This document shows, in pieces, positions 4,841 through 22,076 of a DNA stretch of 64,000 bases (position 1 is its first letter; the number at the start of each line of letters is the position of its first letter). The stretch is taken from contig NZ_JQMQ01000005.1 in the NCBI RefSeq assembly GCF_000744815.1, forward strand, positions 3,666,055-3,730,054, written 5' to 3'. Made by a program: the position numbers and the translations under genes. This DNA is from Phaeacidiphilus oryzae TH49. Its GTDB lineage: Bacteria; Actinomycetota; Actinomycetes; Streptomycetales; Streptomycetaceae. Below the pieces are notes generated by a model. It made no database searches, was not told the origin of the DNA, and was given only the letters and a program-made list of their open reading frames with translations.

Positions 4841-5557
4841 TCACCAGTCGGCACGCCGGAATCTCAGCCCGCGCCGCTGCGGAGGGCGGTGGTGGACGAC
4901 CACCAGCGGCATTCCCACCACCCGGAAGCCCGCCTCCACCAGCACCGAGGTCAGCCTGGCCTCCGGCCGGCCGCCGGGGCCCAGAGGAAGGGCCGCCTGG
5001 AAGGCGGCCCGGGTCAGACAGCGCTCGGTGGACTCCCGCAACCCCGGCGCCCGCCGCTCCCGGGCGGCCGGACCGGTCGGCAGCCCGACCGTCATGTCCG
5101 CCTCCCCGCGCAGCACCGGAGTGAGGAGGGTCTCCGCCCGGACCGCGGTCGGCCCCAGATCGGCGGCGATCAGCAGCAGCGGCCGGGCCACCGGCCCGTC
5201 CGGCCCGGGCGTTCCGTACTCCATGTCGTCGCAGGCGGCCACCGCCGCCGCGCCGCTCTCCAGCGCGGCCGCCCGGCCCAGGCGCCTGCGGTGCCGGACC
5301 ACGGCCGCGCCGGAGTCCTCGGCCACCCGCGCGGTGGAGTCGGTGGACGCGTCGTCCACCACGACCACCAGGTCCACGGTCGGGATCGAGCGTGCGGAGA
5401 GGACGGTCAGGGCGATCCGGGCGGCGTCGTCCCGGGCGGGCACGACCACGGCTCCGGTCTCCGCGAGGCGTCCGGCGGCGCGGGCGGGACCGGGGGCCGG
5501 ACCAGGGGTGGCTGACGGACCGGGATCGGGTGTGCGGCGGCTCTGCTGCGCATCCAT
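4841..5557 (-). CDS. Family 2 glycosyltransferase-like protein
   Basis: 238 aa. After a Pro/Ala-rich start of about 35 residues, the product shows a GT-A nucleotide-sugar fold: AVVVPARDDAARI, then DLVVVVDDASTDSTARVA, typical of family 2 glycosyltransferases. It is short and has no membrane segments, so the acceptor end is minimal. A DxD-type motif is not clear; LLIAADLGPTA lies near its usual position. ATG start without a good Shine-Dalgarno. A TACCAT box lies only 6 nt upstream of the ATG, so the mRNA may be leaderless. Donor and acceptor cannot be deduced. The divergent Prim-Pol gene starts 440 bp away. Confidence 0.72.
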   Translation of the reverse strand: MDAQQSRRTPDPGPSATPGPAPGPARAAGRLAETGAVVVPARDDAARIALTVLSARSIPTVDLVVVVDDASTDSTARVAEDSGAAVVRHRRRLGRAAALESGAAAVAACDDMEYGTPGPDGPVARPLLLIAADLGPTAVRAETLLTPVLRGEADMTVGLPTGPAARERRAPGLRESTERCLTRAAFQAALPLGPGGRPEARLTSVLVEAGFRVVGMPLVVVHHRPPQRRGLRFRRADW

Positions 5558-5997
5558 GACCGGATGGTACGAGTGTGAGACTCGCCACCCTAGACCCTTG
5601 CCTCACCCGTGTGGGGGAACCAGCAGGCACAGCCGTGCGTCAATCCCGACGATGCGTCAATCTCGGGGACAGGGACGGCTGGTGGGCGCTGGTCCGCGGT
5701 GGCGGACCGGTGCCGGCGGACGTCCCCCTGCTGGTGCACGTGTGCGGCGGGCTGTTACGGGCAGGACCTGTACAGCGGGACCAGTCCGGTGAACTGACCG
5801 GGCGTCAGTACGGCAGTGAAGTACGGCAGCATCTGCGGTACGGAAGAATCGAAGGGTGGGCGCGGAACCGGGTGGCGGTAATCGCCACCCTGCGCCACCC
5901 CCCGCCACATACCGCAACCGGCAACCCGCGTGATGCGCTTCTCGTTGCGCGAGGTCACGTACCGATCCTTGGCTGGTCACGGAAAGGACGAGCGCAC
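5558..5997. other. 440-bp intergenic region between divergent genes
   Basis: No convincing gene. It holds the promoters of the divergent glycosyltransferase and Prim-Pol genes. Visible elements are a GAGTgtgagACTC inverted repeat (about 5574-5586) just upstream of the glycosyltransferase start, and two direct copies of GCGTCAATC about 15 bp apart near 5637 and 5652. A GGAAAGGA ribosome site at about 5980 precedes the Prim-Pol ATG. Confidence 0.5.
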
Positions 5998-6777
5998 ATG
6001 CGCCGTTTCCTCGGAATCCCCGGAGTCCCCGGAAACCGACGAAGGACCAGGTCGGCACTGCTCGGCGCGGCCATCACCTGCGTAGAGCAGTGGCGCTGGC
6101 CGGTCGTGCCCGGCGCGCTGCCCGCGTCGCCTCCGGCGCCCGGCCTGTCCTGGGGCCCGGCCCCGGCGGAGTCCGCCGAGGGCGACGAACCGCTGGGCAC
6201 CGGATGCTCCTGCCCGCGCCCGGACTGCCCGGTCCCGGGCGCGCATCCGCACGATCCGCCGCTGCTCGCGGCGACCACCGACCCGCGGATGGTGCGCTGG
6301 TGGTGGACCACCCGGCCGACCGCCCCGCTGGTGGTGGCGACCGGGGAGCGGGTGGCCGCGGTCAGCCTGCCGGCCGTGGCCGGCGCGCGGCTGCTGGACT
6401 ACCTGGACGCGCTGCGGCACCCGGTGGGCCCGGTCATCGCCACGCCCACCCGCTATCTGCTGCTGGTCGCCCCCTACACCCACGAGGAGCTCGCCGAGCT
6501 GCTGATGCGCCAGGAGTCGGTGCCCACCAGCGTGCGGTACCACGGCCCGGGCGGCTATGTGCTGCTGCCGCCGTCCAGGACCGCCGCCGGCGAGCTGCGC
6601 TGGGTCCGCGAGCCGGTGCCGCCGCAGGACGCGGGCGCGGGTGCGCGGGCCGGCGCGGAGCCGGTCGAGATGGGGGTGGGGGGCGTGGCGCCCTGGCTGC
6701 CGCCGGTCGCGGACTTCGTCGACGCGCTCGTCGCGGCGGGGAGTTCGGCCCCGGACGGAACCCGGCTGGCCTACTGA
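5998..6777 (+). CDS. Bifunctional DNA primase/polymerase (Prim-Pol) N-terminal domain protein
   Basis: 259 aa. Matches the actinobacterial proteins with an N-terminal Prim-Pol (archaeo-eukaryotic primase-like) domain: LLGAAITCVEQWRWPVVPGA, a Cys/His cluster (CSCPRPDCPVPGAHPHD) typical of the family, then WWWTTRPTAPLVVATGERVAAVSLP. There is no fused helicase. The usual DxD catalytic pair of full primases is not evident, so synthesis by this protein is unproven. The open frame extends 141 codons further upstream, but the ATG at 5998 is preceded by GGAAAGGACG at proper spacing and matches the usual family start MRRFLGIPG. A strong hairpin terminator follows. Confidence 0.75.
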   Translation: MRRFLGIPGVPGNRRRTRSALLGAAITCVEQWRWPVVPGALPASPPAPGLSWGPAPAESAEGDEPLGTGCSCPRPDCPVPGAHPHDPPLLAATTDPRMVRWWWTTRPTAPLVVATGERVAAVSLPAVAGARLLDYLDALRHPVGPVIATPTRYLLLVAPYTHEELAELLMRQESVPTSVRYHGPGGYVLLPPSRTAAGELRWVREPVPPQDAGAGARAGAEPVEMGVGGVAPWLPPVADFVDALVAAGSSAPDGTRLAY

Positions 6778-6780
6778 AAG

Positions 6781-6825
6781 GCCCGGCCGCTGGCGACGGG
6801 GGATGCACCAGCGGCCGGGCTGTTT
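6781..6825 (+). terminator. Rho-independent terminator after the Prim-Pol gene
   Basis: Perfect 13-bp stem GCCCGGCCGCTGG (6781-6793) pairing with CCAGCGGCCGGGC (6808-6820), 14-nt loop, followed by TGTTT. Confidence 0.85.
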
Positions 6826-6937
6826 AAACGGTAACAAGAATTGGGCCGCACGCAAATTCCCTGTGCGGAAGCCGCGCGGGAAACCTGCAGTACATCGTCA
6901 ACCATGTGACACAGCTCACGAGTTGACGCGCTGTCCG

Positions 6938-6968
6938 CAGGGCCCCGGAGGGGTCTTTCGGGGCCCTG
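6938..6968 (-). terminator. Terminator of the SEC-C protein gene
   Basis: CAGGGCCCCG (6938-6947) pairs with CGGGGCCCTG (6959-6968) around an 11-nt loop. It lies 7 bp beyond the stop codon of the minus-strand gene and so ends that transcript. Confidence 0.75.
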
Positions 6969-6975
6969 CGACCGG

Positions 6976-8019
6976 TCAGCCGATGGTGAGCTGCCGGTTG
7001 ACCAGACCGGCCCGGGACTTCCGCTCGGCGGCGGTGAGCGGCCCGGTCTCGGCGAGGGCGGCGGTCAGCCGCTCCCCGAAGGCCACGGCCGGCTTCTCCA
7101 CCTCGGCGGCGGTGGTCTCCGCCGGCAGGTCCCACACCGGGACGGTCAGCCCGTGCGCCCGGAACGAGCCGACCAGGCGGGTCCCCTCGCCGAGCCCGGC
7201 CTCGCCGGCCGCGGAGAGCCGGGCCAGCGCGTCCAGCAGCCGCTCCTCGTCGTGGGTCATGACCCACCGCAGGTGGTTCTTCTCGGCGGCCCGGCACCAG
7301 TACGCCGCGGACAGGCCGGAGCCCAGGCGCTCGGTGGGGATGATGGCGGCGTTGGCGCGCTCCAGCGAGGCGGCGACCTCTCCGGAGGGGCTCTCGGCGC
7401 CGTCCGGGCTCTCCAGCCAGTAGCCGAAGTCCTGGTGGAGGGTGAGGTCGAGCCCGGCGGAGGTGTCCAGCAGGTCCTGGAGGCGGGGGGAGTCCGGCTG
7501 CGGGCGGCGGACCGCGACCGAGGCGCCCGGCTCGGCGGCCAGCGCCTGCGCCAGCGCGTCGCCGGCGTCCCGGCTGACGTCCCCGGAGCCGCTCTGGGTC
7601 TGCAGCCCCACCAGGACGCTGCCGTCCTGCCGCCGGATCGCGGCCAGGGCCAGCGGCAGGACCGTGGTGAGGGTCACCGAGGGCACCTCGCCGACGGCCA
7701 GCTCCCGGCCCCGCTCGCTGAGCCGCAGCGGGGCGGTGGCGGCCGGCACCAGCTCCCGCAGCGCCACCCAGTCCGCCTCGTCCGGGAGGCCGGCGAACGG
7801 GCGGGTCACCAGCTCCTGGGCGACGTGCGCGGCCTCCCGGCCGTGGCAGGCCTTGTAGCGCCGGCCGGATCCGCACGGGCAGGGCTCCCGGGCGCCGACC
7901 ACCGGTACCGGCTCGTCCGAGGAGAGCGGCCGGCGGTTCTGCGGGGCACCCGCGGCACCGCGCCTTCCGGCGCGCTTGCCGGCACCCTTCGCGGTGTTCT
8001 TCCGTTGGGCAGCTGCCAT
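6976..8019 (-). CDS. SEC-C motif protein (DUF5926 family)
   Basis: 347 aa. A basic Ala/Lys/Arg N-terminus (about 1-35) is followed by the SEC-C zinc motif PCPCGSGRRYKACHGR (about 47-62), the same C-x-C-x8-CH pattern as at the SecA C-terminus. The rest (about 65-345) matches the actinobacterial family DUF5926; no catalytic motif is recognised. Conservation in Streptomyces is recalled knowledge; the function is unknown. ATG start with a GGAGAGA Shine-Dalgarno. Single-gene transcription unit with its own terminator. Confidence 0.8.
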   Translation of the reverse strand: MAAAQRKNTAKGAGKRAGRRGAAGAPQNRRPLSSDEPVPVVGAREPCPCGSGRRYKACHGREAAHVAQELVTRPFAGLPDEADWVALRELVPAATAPLRLSERGRELAVGEVPSVTLTTVLPLALAAIRRQDGSVLVGLQTQSGSGDVSRDAGDALAQALAAEPGASVAVRRPQPDSPRLQDLLDTSAGLDLTLHQDFGYWLESPDGAESPSGEVAASLERANAAIIPTERLGSGLSAAYWCRAAEKNHLRWVMTHDEERLLDALARLSAAGEAGLGEGTRLVGSFRAHGLTVPVWDLPAETTAAEVEKPAVAFGERLTAALAETGPLTAAERKSRAGLVNRQLTIG

Positions 8020-14939: not shown

Positions 14940-15029
14940 CGCCGGCCTCCACGCCTCGGCGTCCGAAGGCCGCCCGATTGCCCCGCTGACTGGGACACGT
15001 TCCCGGCTAGGCCAGGCCAAGACCGGCCC

Positions 15030-15640
15030 GCGCCCCAGCGGCAGCGAGCCCGGCGAAGCCAAGCCGGCAAGCCGAGCGAGCGAGGCAGGCCTGACGCAAG
15101 CCAGACAGCTCAGGCGAGCCAGGTGAGCAGGTAAGCCAGGCGGCTCAGATGAGTCAGGCGAGCCTGGTGGACCCTTTGGTCCGAGCGAGCCAGGCAGGCG
15201 AGGACGACCAGGCGAGTCCCGGCGAACCCGGTGGCCCGAGCGATCCAGGCAGGTCAGGTGAGCCAGGCAGGTCAGGCGAGCCCGGCGGATCCGGTGGCCC
15301 GAGCAAGCCAGGCAGGCCCGGTGATCCGAGTGGGCGAGGCAGCCCAGCAAGTCAGGCGCGACCAGCGGATCCGGTGGCCTGAACAAGCCAGGCGGGCCCG
15401 GCGACCGGTAGGTCCTGACGGCCAGGGCGAGTCATGTGATTCGCGATGGCCCAGGCGGGTCCGGCAGTCCAGGCGGGCCAGGTACGCCGAGCGATCCAGG
15501 CGGGCCAGGCAGGCCAGGCGATCCAGGCGACCCAGGCACGTCGGCGACCCAAGCGATCCAGGCGACCCAGGCGAGTCCCCGTGTCCCAAAGCCGGTCAGG
15601 TCAGTCCGGCGACGCATGAGGAGCCAGGCGAGCCATGCGC
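15030..15640. repeat. Degenerate short-repeat array (AGGCGAGCCAGGC-like units)
   Basis: About 600 bp made of imperfect 10-15-bp units related to GGCGAGCCAGGCAGG and GGCGATCCAGGC. Both strands are open for long stretches because the unit is nearly free of stops. The plus strand reads as collagen-like Gly-x-y (GEPGGPSDPGRSGEP), as does the minus (GSPGSPGLPGPPG). No frame has a good ribosome site or one uniform reading through the array, so I annotate it as repeat DNA, not a gene. Confidence 0.75.
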
Positions 15641-16151: not shown

Positions 16152-16460
16152 ATGGCTCGCATCCGCACCGCCCTTGCCGCCGCTCCGATCGCGGTCGCGC
16201 TTCTGCTCGCCGGCGCCGGCGCAGCCGCCGCCGACAACGGCTCCTTCGCGGACCACGGCTCGAACGGCAGCGTCGTCTCCAACTCGGGCAGCGGAAACCT
16301 GGGCGGATTGGTCGACGGCAACGCCCTCTGGAGCCAGCAGACCGCGACCGGTGCCGGGGCGCACAACTCCAACAACACCGTGGCGGTGAAGGGCAGCAAC
16401 AACGTCACCAACACGGATCAGCGGAACACCGACATCTCCTTCGGACCCATCTTCGGCTGA
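16152..16460 (+). CDS. Small secreted protein, Asn/Ser/Gly-rich
   Basis: 102 aa with a clear signal peptide (MARIRTALAAAPIAVALLLA, cleavage probably after AGAGAAAA). The mature part of about 75 residues has no Cys and is rich in Asn, Ser, Gly and Thr: SNGSVVSNSGSGN, then NNTVAVKGSNNVTNTDQRN, ending DISFGPIFG. The alternating polar/aliphatic pattern suggests a beta-rich, possibly self-associating exported protein. It does not match chaplins or rodlins closely, and I do not recognise the family. The ATG follows GGGAGGACC; the frame extends upstream but only into repeats. A strong terminator follows. Confidence 0.75.
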   Translation: MARIRTALAAAPIAVALLLAGAGAAAADNGSFADHGSNGSVVSNSGSGNLGGLVDGNALWSQQTATGAGAHNSNNTVAVKGSNNVTNTDQRNTDISFGPIFG

Positions 16461-16575: not shown

Positions 16576-16596
16576 TATCTGACGGACAGTCAGATA
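16576..16596 (+). promoter_or_regulatory. Palindromic operator abutting the hydratase start codon
   Basis: Perfect inverted repeat TATCTGAC-GGACA-GTCAGATA ending one base before the GTG start. TTGACA at 16561-16566 is spaced 18 nt from GACAGT (16585-16590), which fits a promoter for a leaderless transcript starting at the GTG. A TetR-type repressor bound here would cover the -10 and start. No such regulator lies adjacent. Confidence 0.7.
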
Positions 16597-16597
16597 C

Positions 16598-17998
16598 GTG
16601 ACGATGCAGGCGGAGCAGCAGCGGTCGAACGACGCGGGCGACGAGTACTCCCGGTACGTCGGGCGTACGGCGTCGGTGGCCAGGCCGGGACTCGACCCGG
16701 TGAACGCGCCGATGATCCGGCACTGGTGCGAGGCGATGGGCGACCGGCACCCGTCCTACCGCGAGGGACCCGGCCAGGTCGCGCCGCCCGCCATGCTGCA
16801 GGCCTGGACGATGGCCGGCCTCTCGGTGGATCTCCAGCGCGCGGGCGCCTACGGCGAACTCCTCACCGATCTCGACGCGGCCGGTTTCACCTCGGTGGTG
16901 GCCACCGACTGCGAGCAGGAGTACCTCCGCCCGCTGCGGCCCGGTGACCGGGTGGTCTCGGACGCGGTCGTCGAGTCGGTCTCCCCGCTCAAGCGGACCG
17001 CCCTCGGGGAGGGGCACTTCGTCACCACCCGGACCGAGATCAAGGTGGCCGGAGAGGTGGCCGGGACCCACCGCTTCCGGATCCTCAAGTTCCGCCCCCG
17101 CGAAGGCGGTTCGAAGAAGAGCGGTGAGGACCGGGCGAGCCGTGCGCCGCGTGGGCTGCGCCCGCGACCGGTGGTCAACCGCGACAACGCCTGCTTCTGG
17201 GACGGGATCTCCGAAGGACGGCTGCTCTACCAGCGCTGCTCCGACTGCCGCCGGGCGCGGCTGCCGTGGCTGCCCGGCTGTCCCGGCTGCGGCTCCGACC
17301 GCTGGACGGCGGAGGAGTCCTCGGGGCGCGGCACGGTCTACTCACGGGTCGTCGTCCACCACCCGCTGCCGCCGGCCTTCCCCGGGCCGTACTCCGTGGC
17401 GCTGGTCGAACTCGCCGAAGGGGTAAGGCTGGTGAGCAACGTCGTCGGCGTCCCGCCGGAGGAGGTGGCGATCGGGACACCGGTCCGGGTCAGCTACCAG
17501 CGCTGCGACGAGGAGCTCACCCTGCCGCTCTTCGTGCCGGTGGACGCCCCGCAGCCGCTGCGGCTGCCGATCACCCGCACCCGGATCGTGGCCGGCGCGA
17601 TCGCCTCCCGCGACTACCAGGACGTCCACCACGACGCCGAGGCCGCCCGGGCCAAGGGCTCGCCGGACATCTTCATGAACATCCTCACCACCAACGGGCT
17701 GGTCGGCCGGTACGCCACCGACTGGGCCGGGCCAGGCGCCGAACTGCGGCGGATAGCTATCCGGTTGGGCGTCCCCGCCTACCCGGGCGACGAGTTGGAG
17801 CTCACCGGCCGGGTCACCGCCCGGCACCGCGAGGGCGGCAGCGCCGACGGCAGCGCCGACGACAGCGCCGCCGGCCGTGAGTACGCCGAACTCGCCGTCA
17901 CCGGAACGGTATCGATCGGCACCCATGTCAGCGGAACGGTCACCCTCGCGCTGCCGGAAGGCGGCGCCGGGGCGGAGGGTACGGGGGTCTCGGCATGA
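16598..17998 (+). CDS. Fused enoyl-CoA hydratase: MaoC-like / DUF35 OB-fold / MaoC (ChsH2-ChsH1-like)
   Basis: 466 aa, three parts. Residues about 15-165 are an FAS1-dehydratase/MaoC-like hot-dog. Residues about 185-310 are a DUF35 unit with a rubredoxin-like zinc ribbon (CSDCRRARLPWLPGCPGC) and OB-fold. Residues about 325-455 are a second hot-dog with a MaoC pattern (YQDVHHDAEAARAKGSPDIFMN). In cholesterol degradation ChsH2 (hot-dog plus DUF35) and ChsH1 (hot-dog) form a hydratase, and the DUF35 part docks the aldolase Ltp2. Here both are fused, and the Ltp2-like gene overlaps by 4 bp (ATGA). The substrate is likely a branched steroid-side-chain-like enoyl-CoA, by inference. GTG start with no Shine-Dalgarno, probably leaderless; ATG 6 nt later is an alternative. 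Confidence 0.85.
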   Translation: MTMQAEQQRSNDAGDEYSRYVGRTASVARPGLDPVNAPMIRHWCEAMGDRHPSYREGPGQVAPPAMLQAWTMAGLSVDLQRAGAYGELLTDLDAAGFTSVVATDCEQEYLRPLRPGDRVVSDAVVESVSPLKRTALGEGHFVTTRTEIKVAGEVAGTHRFRILKFRPREGGSKKSGEDRASRAPRGLRPRPVVNRDNACFWDGISEGRLLYQRCSDCRRARLPWLPGCPGCGSDRWTAEESSGRGTVYSRVVVHHPLPPAFPGPYSVALVELAEGVRLVSNVVGVPPEEVAIGTPVRVSYQRCDEELTLPLFVPVDAPQPLRLPITRTRIVAGAIASRDYQDVHHDAEAARAKGSPDIFMNILTTNGLVGRYATDWAGPGAELRRIAIRLGVPAYPGDELELTGRVTARHREGGSADGSADDSAAGREYAELAVTGTVSIGTHVSGTVTLALPEGGAGAEGTGVSA

Positions 17999-19179
17999 GC
18001 GTGCGGCACGCGGACCGGCTGGGCGGACAGGCCGCGGTGGTCGGCATCGGGGCCACCGAGTTCTCCAAGGACTCCGGGCGGAGCGAGCTCAGACTCGCCG
18101 TGGAGGCGGTCCGTTCGGCGATCGCGGACGCCGGGCTCACCCCGGCGGACGTGGACGGTCTGGTCACCTTCACCATGGACACCAACCCGGAGATCACCGT
18201 CGCCCAGGCGGCCGGGATCGGCGATCTCTCCTTCTTCAGCCGGGTGCACTACGGCGGCGGTGCCGCCTGCGCCACCGTGCAGCAGGCGGCGATGGCGGTG
18301 GCCACCGGGGTGGCCGAGGTCGTGGTCTGCTACCGGGCGTTCAACGAGCGCTCGGGGCACCGCTTCGGCGGCGGGGTCGACCGGCGGGCGCCCAGCGCCG
18401 AGGGCGTGGCGATGGGCTGGACGCTGCCGTACGGGCTGGTCACCCCGGCGTCCTGGGTGGCGCTCCACGCGGCCAGGTACCTCCACCACTACGGGCTGGG
18501 CCCGGACGCCCTGGGCCCGGTCGCGGTCGCCGACCGGCGGCATGCGGCGACCAACCCCGCCGCGTACTTCTACCAGCGGCCGATCACGCTGGAGGAGCAC
18601 CGGGAGTCGCGCTGGATCGTCGAACCGCTGCGGCTGCTGGACTGCTGCCAGGAGACCGACGGCGGACAGGCCCTGGTGGTCACCACCGTCGAGCGGGCAC
18701 GCGACCTGCCCCACCCGCCGGCGGTGATCGCGGCGGCGGCGCAGGGCGCCGGCCGCGGCCAGGAGATGATGACCAGCTACTACCGGGACGACCTCACCGG
18801 GCTGCCGGAGATGGACGTGGTCGCCCGGCAGCTGTGGCGGACCAGCGGGCTGACGCCGAATCAGGTCGACGTCGCCGTGCTGTACGACCACTTCACGCCC
18901 TTCGTGCTCATGCAGTTGGAGAGCTTCGGCTTCTGCAAGCCGGGGGAGGCGGCGGACTTCGCCTCGGGCGGGGGGCTGGAGCTGGACGGGCGGCTGCCGA
19001 TGAACCCCCACGGGGGGCAGCTGGGTGAGGCGTACCTCCACGGGATGAACGGCATCGCGGAGGCCGTCCGCCAGCTCCGCGGCTCCGCGGTCAACCAGGT
19101 CCCGGCGGCGTCGACCGCCCTGGTGACGGCGGGCACGGGGGTGCCCACCTCCGGTCTCTGCCTGGTCGCCGACGGGTAG
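17995..19179 (+). CDS. Ltp2-like thiolase-fold retro-aldolase (lipid-transfer protein)
   Basis: 394 aa, non-decarboxylating thiolase fold: AAVVGIGATEFSKDSG at the start, DAGLTPADVDGLVTFTMD, then the C-terminal LYDHFTPFVLMQLESFGFCKPGEAADF and NPHGGQLGEAYLHGMNG. The nucleophilic Cys of true thiolases is not at its usual place, as in Ltp2 aldolases, which cleave the hydrated side chain to a ketone and an acyl-CoA. Translation is coupled to the upstream fused hydratase by a 4-bp overlap, and the DUF35 domain of that protein is the expected docking partner. Together they would hydrate and then cleave the same CoA ester. Confidence 0.85.
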   Translation: MSVRHADRLGGQAAVVGIGATEFSKDSGRSELRLAVEAVRSAIADAGLTPADVDGLVTFTMDTNPEITVAQAAGIGDLSFFSRVHYGGGAACATVQQAAMAVATGVAEVVVCYRAFNERSGHRFGGGVDRRAPSAEGVAMGWTLPYGLVTPASWVALHAARYLHHYGLGPDALGPVAVADRRHAATNPAAYFYQRPITLEEHRESRWIVEPLRLLDCCQETDGGQALVVTTVERARDLPHPPAVIAAAAQGAGRGQEMMTSYYRDDLTGLPEMDVVARQLWRTSGLTPNQVDVAVLYDHFTPFVLMQLESFGFCKPGEAADFASGGGLELDGRLPMNPHGGQLGEAYLHGMNGIAEAVRQLRGSAVNQVPAASTALVTAGTGVPTSGLCLVADG

Positions 19180-20099: not shown

Positions 20100-20263
20100 C
20101 GCCCGGCCGGTCCCGGCTCGGCCGGTCCCCGCTCGCCCGGCCCCGACTCGCCCGGCCCCGACTCGCCCGGCCCCGACTCGCCCGTCCCCGACTCGCCCGT
20201 CCCCGACTCGCCCGTCCCCGACTCGCCCGGCCCCGGCTCGGCCGGCCCGCGCTCGGCCGGTCC
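20100..20263. repeat. 15-bp tandem repeat array
   Basis: About 11 units of ACTCGCCCGGCCCCG, with variants GTCCCCG and GGCTCGGCC at the edges, head to tail in the gap between the DUF1906 and acyl-CoA ligase genes. The three middle units share the same GTCCCC variant, pointing to recent local duplication. No coding evidence. Confidence 0.88.
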
Positions 20264-20381: not shown

Positions 20382-22076
20382 GTGCTCAGCTCGATGCAGG
20401 ACGTTCCGCTCACCGTCGCCCGGATTCTGCGGCACGGCTCCACCATCCACGGCCGCTCCACGGTCACCACCTGGACCGGCGACCCGGAGACCGGCCCCCG
20501 ACGGCGTACCTACGCCGAGGCCGGCGCCCGCGCCGCCCGCCTCGCCCACGCCCTCCGCGAGGAGCTGGGCGTCCGCGACGACGACCGGGTGGCCACCCTG
20601 ATGTGGAACAACGCGGAGCACCTGGAGGCGTACCTGGCGGTGCCGGCCATGGGCGCGGTGCTCCACACCCTCAACATCCGGCTCCCCGCCCACCAGCTGA
20701 CCTGGATCGTCAACCACGCCGCCGACCGGGTGCTGATCGCCGACGCCAACCTCCTCCCCCTCCTCCAGCCGGTCCTGCCGCAGCTGGAGGAGGGCGTGCT
20801 GGAGCACATCGTGGTGGTCGGCCCGGGCGACCGCGCCCCGCTGGACGGCTACCGCGGCGGCGTCCACGACTACGAGGAGCTGATCGCCGGCCGGCCCGAC
20901 GACTATCCGTGGGCGGACGCGATCGACGAGCGCAGCGCCGCCGCCCTCTGCTACACCTCCGGGACGACCGGCGACCCGAAGGGCGTCCTCTACAGCCACC
21001 GCTCGGTCTACCTCCACTCGATGCAGGTGTGCATGACCGAGACCTTCGGCCTGAACCCCCGGCAGACGGTGCTGCCGGTGGTGCCGATGTTCCACGTGAA
21101 CGCGTGGGGCCTGCCGCACGCCGCCTTCCTGGGCGGGGCCCGGCTGCTGATGCCGGACCGCTTCCTGCAGCCCGCCCCCCTCGCCGAGATGATCACCGCC
21201 GAGCGGCCCACGGTCGGCGCCGCCGTCCCCACCATCTGGACCGGGCTGCTGAACGAGCTGGACCGGGCGGCCGGCGCCGAACCGGGCCGCTACGACACCT
21301 CCTCCCTGGAGGAGGTGGTGATCGGCGGCTCGGCCTGTCCGCCGTCGCTGATGAAGGCCTTCGAGGAGCGGCACGGCATCAGGGTGGTCCACGCCTGGGG
21401 GATGACCGAGACCTCCCCGCTGGGCTCGGTCGCGGTCCCGCCGGGCGGCCTCACCGCCGAGGAGGAGTGGCCCTACCGGGTCTCCCAGGGCCGCTTCCCC
21501 TGCTCGGTGGAGGCCAGGCTGATCGGGCCGGACGGTTCCCGGCTCCCGCACGACGGCGCCCACGCGGGCGAGTTGGAGGTGCGCGGCCCGTGGATCGCCG
21601 GCTCGTACTTCGCCGGGGCGGGCAGCGACCCGGCGGGCGCGCGGCCCGAGGACAAGTTCAGCGAGGACGGCTGGCTGCGCACCGGCGACGTCGGCACCAT
21701 CACCGCCGACGGCTACCTCACCATCACCGACCGGGCCAAGGACGTGATCAAGTCCGGCGGTGAGTGGATCTCCTCGGTGGACCTGGAGAACGAGCTGATG
21801 GCCCACCCGGACGTGGCCGAGGCCGCGGTGGTCGCGGTGCCGGACGCCAGGTGGGGCGAACGCCCGCTGGCCACCGTGGTCCTCAAGCCGGGCGCCGAGA
21901 CCGACCTGGCCGGGCTGCGCGCCTTCCTGGAGGGGCGGGTGGCGCACTGGCAGGTGCCGGAGCGCTGGTCGCTGGTCGAGGCGGTGCCCAAGACCTCCGT
22001 CGGCAAGTTCGACAAGAAGGTGATCCGGGCCTCCTACGCGGCCGGCGAGCTCGACGTCTCGACGGTGGAGAAGTAG
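20382..22076 (+). CDS. Long-chain fatty-acid/acyl-CoA ligase (FadD-type AMP-binding enzyme)
   Basis: 564-aa ANL-superfamily adenylate-forming enzyme. Motifs: P-loop YTSGTTGDPKGV (about 188-199), GMTETSPLG, STGD-type GWLRTGDVGTITADGYLTITDR, hinge DVIKSGGEWISS, and the catalytic Lys region KTSVGKFDKKV near the C-terminus. It activates a fatty or related acid as acyl-AMP and then forms the CoA thioester. The GTG start follows GGAGG by 6 nt and gives the family-typical MLSSMQDVPLTV. It may supply CoA esters to the hydratase/aldolase pair 1.2 kb upstream, but the DUF1906 gene and a repeat array lie between. Chain-length preference is unknown. Confidence 0.9.
   Translation: MLSSMQDVPLTVARILRHGSTIHGRSTVTTWTGDPETGPRRRTYAEAGARAARLAHALREELGVRDDDRVATLMWNNAEHLEAYLAVPAMGAVLHTLNIRLPAHQLTWIVNHAADRVLIADANLLPLLQPVLPQLEEGVLEHIVVVGPGDRAPLDGYRGGVHDYEELIAGRPDDYPWADAIDERSAAALCYTSGTTGDPKGVLYSHRSVYLHSMQVCMTETFGLNPRQTVLPVVPMFHVNAWGLPHAAFLGGARLLMPDRFLQPAPLAEMITAERPTVGAAVPTIWTGLLNELDRAAGAEPGRYDTSSLEEVVIGGSACPPSLMKAFEERHGIRVVHAWGMTETSPLGSVAVPPGGLTAEEEWPYRVSQGRFPCSVEARLIGPDGSRLPHDGAHAGELEVRGPWIAGSYFAGAGSDPAGARPEDKFSEDGWLRTGDVGTITADGYLTITDRAKDVIKSGGEWISSVDLENELMAHPDVAEAAVVAVPDARWGERPLATVVLKPGAETDLAGLRAFLEGRVAHWQVPERWSLVEAVPKTSVGKFDKKVIRASYAAGELDVSTVEK

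Follow-up and report, generated by a model that had tools for sequence, protein, structure and literature searches.

A one-chain ChsH2-DUF35-ChsH1 hydratase and an Ltp2-type aldolase downstream of a palindromic operator in Phaeacidiphilus oryzae TH49

The fused hydratase and its aldolase partner

The window analysed here is a stretch of 64,000 nucleotides from the genome of P. oryzae TH49 (contig NZ_JQMQ01000005.1). It carries two overlapping genes with the following features, together with the operator before them and a ligase gene downstream:

16576..16596, no strand assigned: palindromic operator TATCTGAC-GGACA-GTCAGATA, both arms perfect, separated from the GTG start by a single base
16598..17998, + strand: fused hydratase ChsH2(MaoC)-DUF35-ChsH1(MaoC), 466 aa (Pfam domains, solved relatives, AlphaFold2 model)
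16691..17059, + strand: N-terminal hot-dog half, ChsH2-like (FAS1_DH_region, residues 32-154; 4wnb_A, 106 bits)
17198..17497, + strand: DUF35, a C4 zinc ribbon and OB fold (zf-ChsH2, residues 201-236; OB_ChsH2_C, residues 239-300; 6ok1_B)
17558..17821, + strand: C-terminal hot-dog half, ChsH1-like (MaoC, residues 321-408)
17995..19179, + strand: Ltp2-type steroid aldolase, 394 aa (NF005892; 6ok1_A)
20382..22076, + strand: acyl-CoA ligase, downstream (AMP-binding)

In the list of open reading frames, 16598-17998 is one uninterrupted frame whose product holds both hydratase halves and DUF35 in a single chain; either GTG 16598 or ATG 16604, in one frame, may be its start codon. All four Pfam domains scored above cut-off. 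The top structural relative was ChsH2(DUF35), 6ok1_B (E 1.2e-37), followed by the Mycobacterium tuberculosis ChsH1-ChsH2 chains 4wnb/4w78. The initial annotation had given the coordinates of both genes correctly, and its order ChsH2-DUF35-ChsH1 in one 466-aa chain is borne out by the single frame, the Pfam domains and the solved relatives. A sequencing or assembly slip was rejected as the source of the fusion, because six Streptacidiphilus assemblies share it, likewise uninterrupted.

The C-terminal half contains the catalytic dyad D339/H344, which aligned to residues 29 and 34 of 4wnb_B, and the ChsH1 dyad motif is kept in all 85 rows of our first tree. The N-terminal half has D49 and, five residues on, Y54 at the catalytic His position. 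In the non-catalytic ChsH2 the catalytic His is replaced by Tyr, according to an excerpt of PMC11321319, and the N-terminal half is expected from its sequence to be non-catalytic as well. Hot-dog catalytic residues, whose absence from both halves would have spoken against the initial annotation, thus occur in the C-terminal half; in the N-terminal half the His is lacking, as in ChsH2. The Tyr-for-His exchange is not found in every fused relative; L132, L142 and L146 are among those without it. The zinc-ribbon cysteines of DUF35 are C214, C217, C228 and C231; their C4 spacing matches that of TcChsH2 and differs from that of Shy. By homology, DUF35 would be the aldolase-docking domain of the fused chain.

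The aldolase reached 672 bits against the lipid-transfer protein model NF005892 (cut-off 469) and 581 bits across 385 residues against Ltp2 (6ok1_A), which confirms the Ltp2-like partner that had been proposed. Both catalytic Tyr are kept, Y297 in YDHF and Y347 in GEAY (motifs starting at 297 and 344); in TcLtp2 the base is Tyr 294 in YDHF and the acid Tyr 344 (PMC12329534, in part). YDHF is found in 85/85 and GEAY in 84/85 rows of the first tree. The hydratase and aldolase genes have the bases ATGA in common, the 4-bp overlap described earlier. C5:4160545 (48%), the second Ltp2-like protein of the genome and the one of eight homologues that was checked for YDHF, was rejected as a second aldolase of the same type because it lacks this motif.

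Ten neighbours in the window were scanned for the remainder of the pathway, and these were rejected apart from the acyl-CoA ligase, which could belong. In eight of the 11 loci shown (L101-L105, L107-L109), ltp2 is followed by a ligase whose N-terminus looks similar by eye, and this synteny with the operon in relatives makes it a putative pathway member.

The AlphaFold2 model of the fused chain (mean pLDDT 77.8, pTM 0.66) packs the two halves as a double hot-dog at moderate confidence; it does not establish the placement of DUF35, and residues 342-345, which include the catalytic His, have pLDDT below 50. About six residues separate the last strand of DUF35 from the C-terminal half in this model. 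A trimmed alignment of model residues 15-453 to 5i7n and 4v12, both single-chain double hot-dog dehydratases, gave Z 27 over 262 residues at 2.7-2.8 Å. The close fit is that of the trimmed alignment, as the whole-chain Foldseek superpositions on these two structures have an rmsd above 20 Å because DUF35 sits between the halves.

The chain resembles M. tuberculosis ChsH1-ChsH2 (4W78, 4WNB) in having a predicted inert and ring-binding MaoC with Tyr for His, an Asp/His catalytic half and DUF35 after the inert half. The M. tuberculosis enzyme, however, consists of two proteins, whereas here one frame without a stop codon tethers DUF35 at both ends. Aldolase score, both Tyr and C4 zinc spacing likewise agree with Ltp2-ChsH2(DUF35) of Thermomonospora curvata (6OK1), a structure that, unlike the present full chain, holds only the DUF35 part of ChsH2. 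ChsH3, CasD and CasQ are also single chains with two distinct hot-dog halves, but they have no DUF35 and are enzymes of C5 side chains (PMC11321319, in part). In proteobacterial Shy-Sal, a MaoC-DUF35 protein docks with an aldolase of thiolase fold, as predicted here; Shy differs in its single MaoC (a homodimer) and Cys3His1 zinc site, and the aldolase has YDCY (sections of PMC11321319 and PMC12329534).

Sterol side-chain genes and the shared operator

Two enzymes of the sterol side-chain pathway have homologues in the genome, CYP125 (525 bits against CYP125 structures) and FadA5 (673 bits against NF005889, cut-off 515). For HsaA and HsaC, no match in the whole genome exceeded the cut-offs of 450 (best 63 and 53 bits). 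The genome-wide search for steroid-degradation genes thus returned the CYP125 and FadA5 homologues and neither Hsa protein, and the earlier observation that the window has no ring-degradation genes extends to the genome for the two tested. Absence of HsaA and HsaC sets this genome apart from characterised cholesterol degraders.

Across 293 genomes of the order, chsH2 was found in 174, a count that pools fused and split forms and in which matches break at long linkers; HsaA exceeded its cut-off in only 13. Both chsH2 and CYP125 occurred in 169 genomes (Fisher p 8e-49, kinship not corrected for), CYP125 without chsH2 in 22 and chsH2 without CYP125 in five, at the thresholds used. This co-occurrence is threshold-dependent: G008, G014 and G030 have no chsH2 at 1e-60 and partial matches at 1e-50.

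In mycobacteria, FadE28/FadE29 supply the substrate of ChsH1-ChsH2, and the igr operon holds fadE28, fadE29 and cyp125 in addition to chsH2, chsH1 and ltp2 in this order. The order of the latter three is the same here, but cyp125 is not in the operon and has its own copy of the operator, and there is no fadE pair, neither gene being detected by tblastn in the operon of the window at ≥120 bits. The genome yielded no FadE28 orthologue (best FadE28-like match 36%, 99 bits), and its best FadE29-like match (54-60%) is in two pieces. Given this absence from the operon and the poor matches in the genome, the preceding step would need another dehydrogenase, for which the FadE29-like protein (54-60%) at C5:6737914-6739101 is a first candidate.

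The window contains two matches to the operator at up to three mismatches, at 16576 (none) and 50032 (three), where 0.03 were expected. At up to two mismatches the genome has 116 sites, compared with two for the pattern read backwards. Of the 80 named loci (the best 80 of 558 confirmed), 79 have the operator upstream of this operon, and it is found at a CYP125/FadA5-type gene pair in all four genomes examined, the present one and three relatives. Another zero-mismatch site lies in front of the gene for an F420 enzyme assigned to the Rv3520c family (TIGR03559, 428 bits against a cut-off of 335); Rv3520c itself lies within the mycobacterial cholesterol gene region. Some sites are within or beside genes without an evident sterol link. 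Literature text searches for the operator returned nothing on topic. A TetR-type gene in an operator-rich cluster (L044:13511-14158) is only a candidate for the regulator.

Recurrence of the fusion

The fusion is real and recurrent. It is present in 20 of 84 tree rows (one of the 84, L154, is labelled only Actinobacteria), and the fused/split label changes nine times on the tree, of which supported branches require at least six. A single distant row roots the first tree, and long branches meet in the second; L099, L100, L102, L105, L106 and L107, apparent duplicates of named loci, were left out of the first tree, as was the incomplete L177. The 80 named loci, as the best-scoring of those confirmed, favour fused forms, and 19/80 fused is therefore not a frequency. 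Beyond these rows, four genomes from further actinomycete families and a Myxococcota MAG carry the fusion; these five were chosen as fused-looking (G375 was added for contrast, and G051 is probably the same contig as L146) and thus do not tell the ancestral state. In the covered sections of PMC11321319 and PMC12502768 a ChsH2-ChsH1 fusion is not mentioned; it may be in print elsewhere.

In streptomycete rows, fused genes are seen at loci lacking the fadE28-like gene that lies between chsH2 and chsH1 in other rows, FadE presence being scored in the fetched flanks by tblastn at ≥120 bits. This link is partly one of definition, since an intervening gene bars fusion, and comparisons of independent row pairs were not significant (p 0.06-0.25). 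Fused genes of other families retain fadE neighbours. The streptomycete pattern makes loss of the fadE28-like gene, followed by loss of the stop codon, a likely route, which would have been taken several times.

Proposed function and alternatives

We consider it probable (about 0.8) that the two genes encode a one-chain ChsH1-ChsH2 steroid enoyl-CoA hydratase and its Ltp2 aldolase, acting at the end of a sterol side-chain pathway. The two hot-dog halves would fold together as an intramolecular double hot-dog, in which the N-terminal half would hold the steroid rings and the C-terminal half (D339/H344) would hydrate the C17(20) double bond of the C3 side-chain CoA ester. DUF35, between the halves, would dock the aldolase, whose base Y297 and acid Y347 would then yield propionyl-CoA and the 17-ketosteroid. 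Hydration and aldol cleavage would be the final step of a pathway that includes CYP125, a MaoC/SDR pair and FadA5 under one palindromic operator. The fixed 1:1 hydratase/aldolase complex put forward in the initial annotation is a plausible prediction. Split proteins already have the contact between DUF35 and aldolase, and what the fusion would add is therefore covalently bound ChsH1. The evidence is best read as a side-chain module for sterols that lacks the ring-cleavage genes tested and whose hydratase is fused around a putative aldolase-docking domain.

The same hydration/retro-aldol chemistry could instead serve a non-steroid branched acyl-CoA, such as another isoprenoid or hopanoid-derived side chain; a substrate other than a steroid had been suggested before. 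The missing HsaA and HsaC matches in the genome agree with this, as do the scarcity of HsaA above cut-off in the order (13 genomes against 174 with chsH2) and the presence in the regulon of enzymes, for example an amidohydrolase, that are not known to have a sterol role. However, the operator ties the operon to the CYP125 and FadA5 homologues and chsH2 co-occurs with CYP125, so the suggestion is not supported. The catalytic and zinc residues are, moreover, those of C3-side-chain steroid enzymes, and C27 of cholesterol is hydroxylated by a CYP125 from Streptomyces (PMC9728343, in part). We therefore regard a non-steroid substrate as unlikely. Even less probable is a pathway that has become vestigial in the present genome, an idea prompted by the loss of the FadE28/29 dehydrogenase pair, with no FadE28 orthologue found and a best FadE29-like match of 54-60%. 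Neither window gene is interrupted, all catalytic residues are in place and the operator is perfect. The 39 of 84 rows in which fadE28 is missing from the operon retain chsH2, chsH1 and ltp2, catalytic motifs included.

Doubt about the functional meaning of the fusion weighs more. The fusion may be neutral and simply follow from the loss of the gene that separated chsH2 from chsH1, with a protein that acts like the two-subunit enzyme; we put this only a little short of even odds. Rows without the fadE28-like gene are about as often fused (20) as adjacent but split (19), and the gap from DUF35 to the C-terminal half varies widely, from about 5 to 57 residues, lengths that depend on where the queries were cut. 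Against neutrality stand the at least six label changes on supported branches and the six Streptacidiphilus rows, all fused and with a short gap of ~9 residues.

Enzymes that remove the side chain but leave the rings intact are useful in steroid drug manufacture. For a sterol side-chain hydratase of the kind proposed here, the fusion also touches on substrate channelling in DUF35-linked hydratase-aldolase pairs, ChsH1-ChsH2-Ltp2 included, which part of PMC12329534 names as a future question, while the long flexible linkers of Shy-Sal are taken there as evidence against channelling. With DUF35 fixed on both sides, a natural chain like the present one would provide a ready test. By eight protein groups including KstD, KshA and HsaA, 55 of 57 Streptomyces genomes were found to be without a steroid pathway (PMC4810484, in part); the regulon suggests a widespread Streptomyces sterol side-chain pathway that ring-gene surveys would miss. 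We tentatively propose that a conserved and co-regulated module for sterol side chains, in most cases lacking hsaA, is present in more than half of streptomycete genomes (the 169/293 with chsH2 and CYP125), where it may strip sterols from the environment down to 17-ketosteroids and so provide acetyl- and propionyl-CoA. On this proposal, in lineages like the present one a single-chain hydratase with DUF35 tethered at both ends may pass the hydrated intermediate directly on to the aldolase.

The fused hydratase and its partner aldolase

The fused protein of the Phaeacidiphilus oryzae TH49 window is most likely a one-chain hydratase of the steroid C3 side chain, as predicted from its domains, residues and modelled fold.

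Genes and domains of the operon (Pfam domains, all above cut-off, by residue of the fused protein)
Window 16598-17998, + strand: fused hydratase gene, a single open frame of 466 codons
Window 17995-19179: Ltp2-type aldolase gene, 394 codons, with an ATGA overlap with the fused gene
Residues 32-154: FAS1-type dehydratase half
Residues 201-236: ChsH2 zinc ribbon
Residues 239-300: ChsH2 OB fold
Residues 321-408: MaoC half

By sequence, the top solved relatives of the fused chain were ChsH2(DUF35) from T. curvata together with both M. tuberculosis ChsH1-ChsH2 chains, each aligning to the expected segment. The aldolase matched T. curvata Ltp2 with 581 bits across 385 residues and exceeded the curated NF005892 cut-off.

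In the C-half, alignment with ChsH1 (4wnb_B) puts D339 opposite its residue 29 and H344 opposite its residue 34; this Asp/His motif was present in 85 of 85 first-tree rows and likewise retained in all four fused genes of other families. The N-half carries D49 and, five residues later, Y54, which matches the replacement of His by Tyr in the inert ChsH2 half described in passages of PMC11321319. Some fused relatives, among them L132, L142 and L146, are without this Tyr. The DUF35 zinc ribbon holds four Cys (C-x2-C-x10-C-x2-C), with the same spacing as the C4 site of TcChsH2 and unlike the Cys3His1 site of Shy, both as described in passages of PMC12329534. Y297 (within YDHF) and Y347 (within GEAY) of the window aldolase correspond to Tyr294 and Tyr344 of TcLtp2, named in the same paper.

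In an AlphaFold2 model built from 21 fused sequences (pTM 0.66, mean pLDDT 77.8, but below 50 at residues 342-345, catalytic His included), both MaoC halves jointly superposed on 5i7n and 4v12, dehydratases with a double hot-dog in one chain; the alignment took in 262 residues between model residues 15 and 453, at Z 27 and rmsd 2.7-2.8 A. The middle part matched the DUF35 of 6ok1, and the N-half the larger chains of 4w78/4wnb. Given this joint fit and these matches, the most apt description of the modelled chain is a double hot-dog hydratase that carries an aldolase-docking domain between its two halves, the DUF35 placement not being fixed by the model. The second linker spans ~6 residues in the model, from strand 308-314 to strand 321-324, and, measured as the gap between matches, is the shortest among 23 fused loci (duplicates counted).

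Recurrence of the fusion

Three arrangements occurred among the 92 loci examined: fadE29-chsH2-fadE28-chsH1-ltp2, separate chsH2-chsH1-ltp2, and the fusion. After duplicates and L177 (cut short) had been dropped, the first tree held 84 rows, 45 of them five-gene, 19 separate (including L152, which retains fadE29 alone of the fadE pair) and 20 fused. The fused label required nine changes, at least six from supported branches alone, and at three points of the tree supported branches put fused rows next to five-gene ones (L131/L136 beside L166, L148 beside L176, L151 beside L186). The window protein grouped with six Streptacidiphilus rows (95% support) and was 78% identical to L153 over the joined pieces.

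A link between fusion and fadE absence was not significant in an independent-pairs test (p 0.06-0.25). Rooted on the MAG locus L156, the tree had fused earliest branches. The tree is explained equally well by repeated loss of the fadE pair and by its being gained once and later lost in some lines, and either state may be ancestral.

Outside the family, the fusion was found in genomes G525, G592, G305 and G505, from three other actinomycete families, with fadE29-like and weaker fadE28-like genes in the vicinity. It also occurs in L156, from a MAG titled Deltaproteobacteria but assigned to Myxococcota by the tree tool. There (L156:1916-4864 and 4974-7498), the fused gene and Ltp2 directly adjoin an ethylbenzene-dehydrogenase-like molybdenum enzyme of the type II DMSO-reductase family (911 bits to TIGR03479, under the cut-off of 985). 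Steroid C25 dehydrogenase belongs to the same family, and an anaerobic sterol side-chain route is possible. In G592 (L241:12165-12770), the neighbours of the fused gene include fadE28/fadE29-like genes, a thiolase gene and a TetR gene that, judged by eye, we take to be similar to KstR; this neighbourhood fits a sterol role.

The operator and its putative regulon

A 21-base palindrome with perfect arms precedes the fused gene, its 3' end one base ahead of the start codon. At up to two mismatches, its 19-base core had 116 sites in the genome, versus two for the pattern read backwards. Among the 80 named loci (the best 80 of 558), 79 carried the operator no more than 700 bases ahead of the operon, the sole exception being the MAG; the backwards-read pattern was upstream in none of the 79. 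At window 16576-16600 and in Streptacidiphilus (L099:3471-3494) the operator directly abuts the start codon, with no space for the usual ribosome site, which suggests that the message may be leaderless in both. Ahead of the operon, window 16152-16460 encodes a small, apparently secreted protein, with a similar gene in L063 and less alike ones in L065 and L103; degenerate short repeats occupy intergenic window 15000-15640 and 20130-20260.

Of 29 TH49 sites with at most one mismatch, nine fall within 41 kb at C5:4127576-4168162 (L043-L045), among acyl-CoA ligase, dehydrogenase, SDR and LLM-type genes (mostly named by eye), a putative large, unnamed regulon. Also in this cluster are a TetR gene, an amidohydrolase and a thiolase-DUF35 pair that lacks YDHF. 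One site lies between divergent CYP125 and FadA5 homologues, and this type of pair had an operator at up to two mismatches in the four best CYP125 loci (TH49 and three relatives, whose thiolase was identified from its N-terminus). Another site is upstream of a MaoC/hydratase-2 gene that is followed by an SDR, the second zero-mismatch site is ahead of an F420 enzyme of the Rv3520c family, and further sites are within or beside genes without an evident sterol-type link.

Side-chain genes, ring genes and the pathway

In a sample of 293 genomes of the order, chsH2 (E <=1e-60) was found in 174, CYP125 (E <=1e-140) in 191 and both in 169 (Fisher p 8e-49, kinship uncorrected). HsaA was above cut-off in 13 genomes, 10 of them with chsH2, and 164 of the 174 chsH2 genomes had none above cut-off. 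The TH49 genome had neither HsaA (best 63 bits versus 450) nor HsaC (best 53 versus 450) above cut-off. Passages of PMC4810484 report the steroid pathway as absent from 55 of 57 Streptomyces genomes; the survey's models include KstD, KshA and HsaA, so its count would miss a side-chain-only module. A Streptomyces CYP125 hydroxylates cholesterol at C27, according to passages of PMC9728343.

The fused hydratase would pass a tertiary alcohol to Ltp2, which would then release propionyl-CoA. The gap in the pathway is the dehydrogenase of the preceding step. No FadE28 orthologue was found in the TH49 genome (best 36%, 99 bits), and the best FadE29-like protein (54-60%) is encoded elsewhere in it; the missing dehydrogenase casts more doubt on the pathway being complete than on the identity of the enzyme. 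The fusion may mean either channelling or a mere by-product, a question that the short second linker makes testable.
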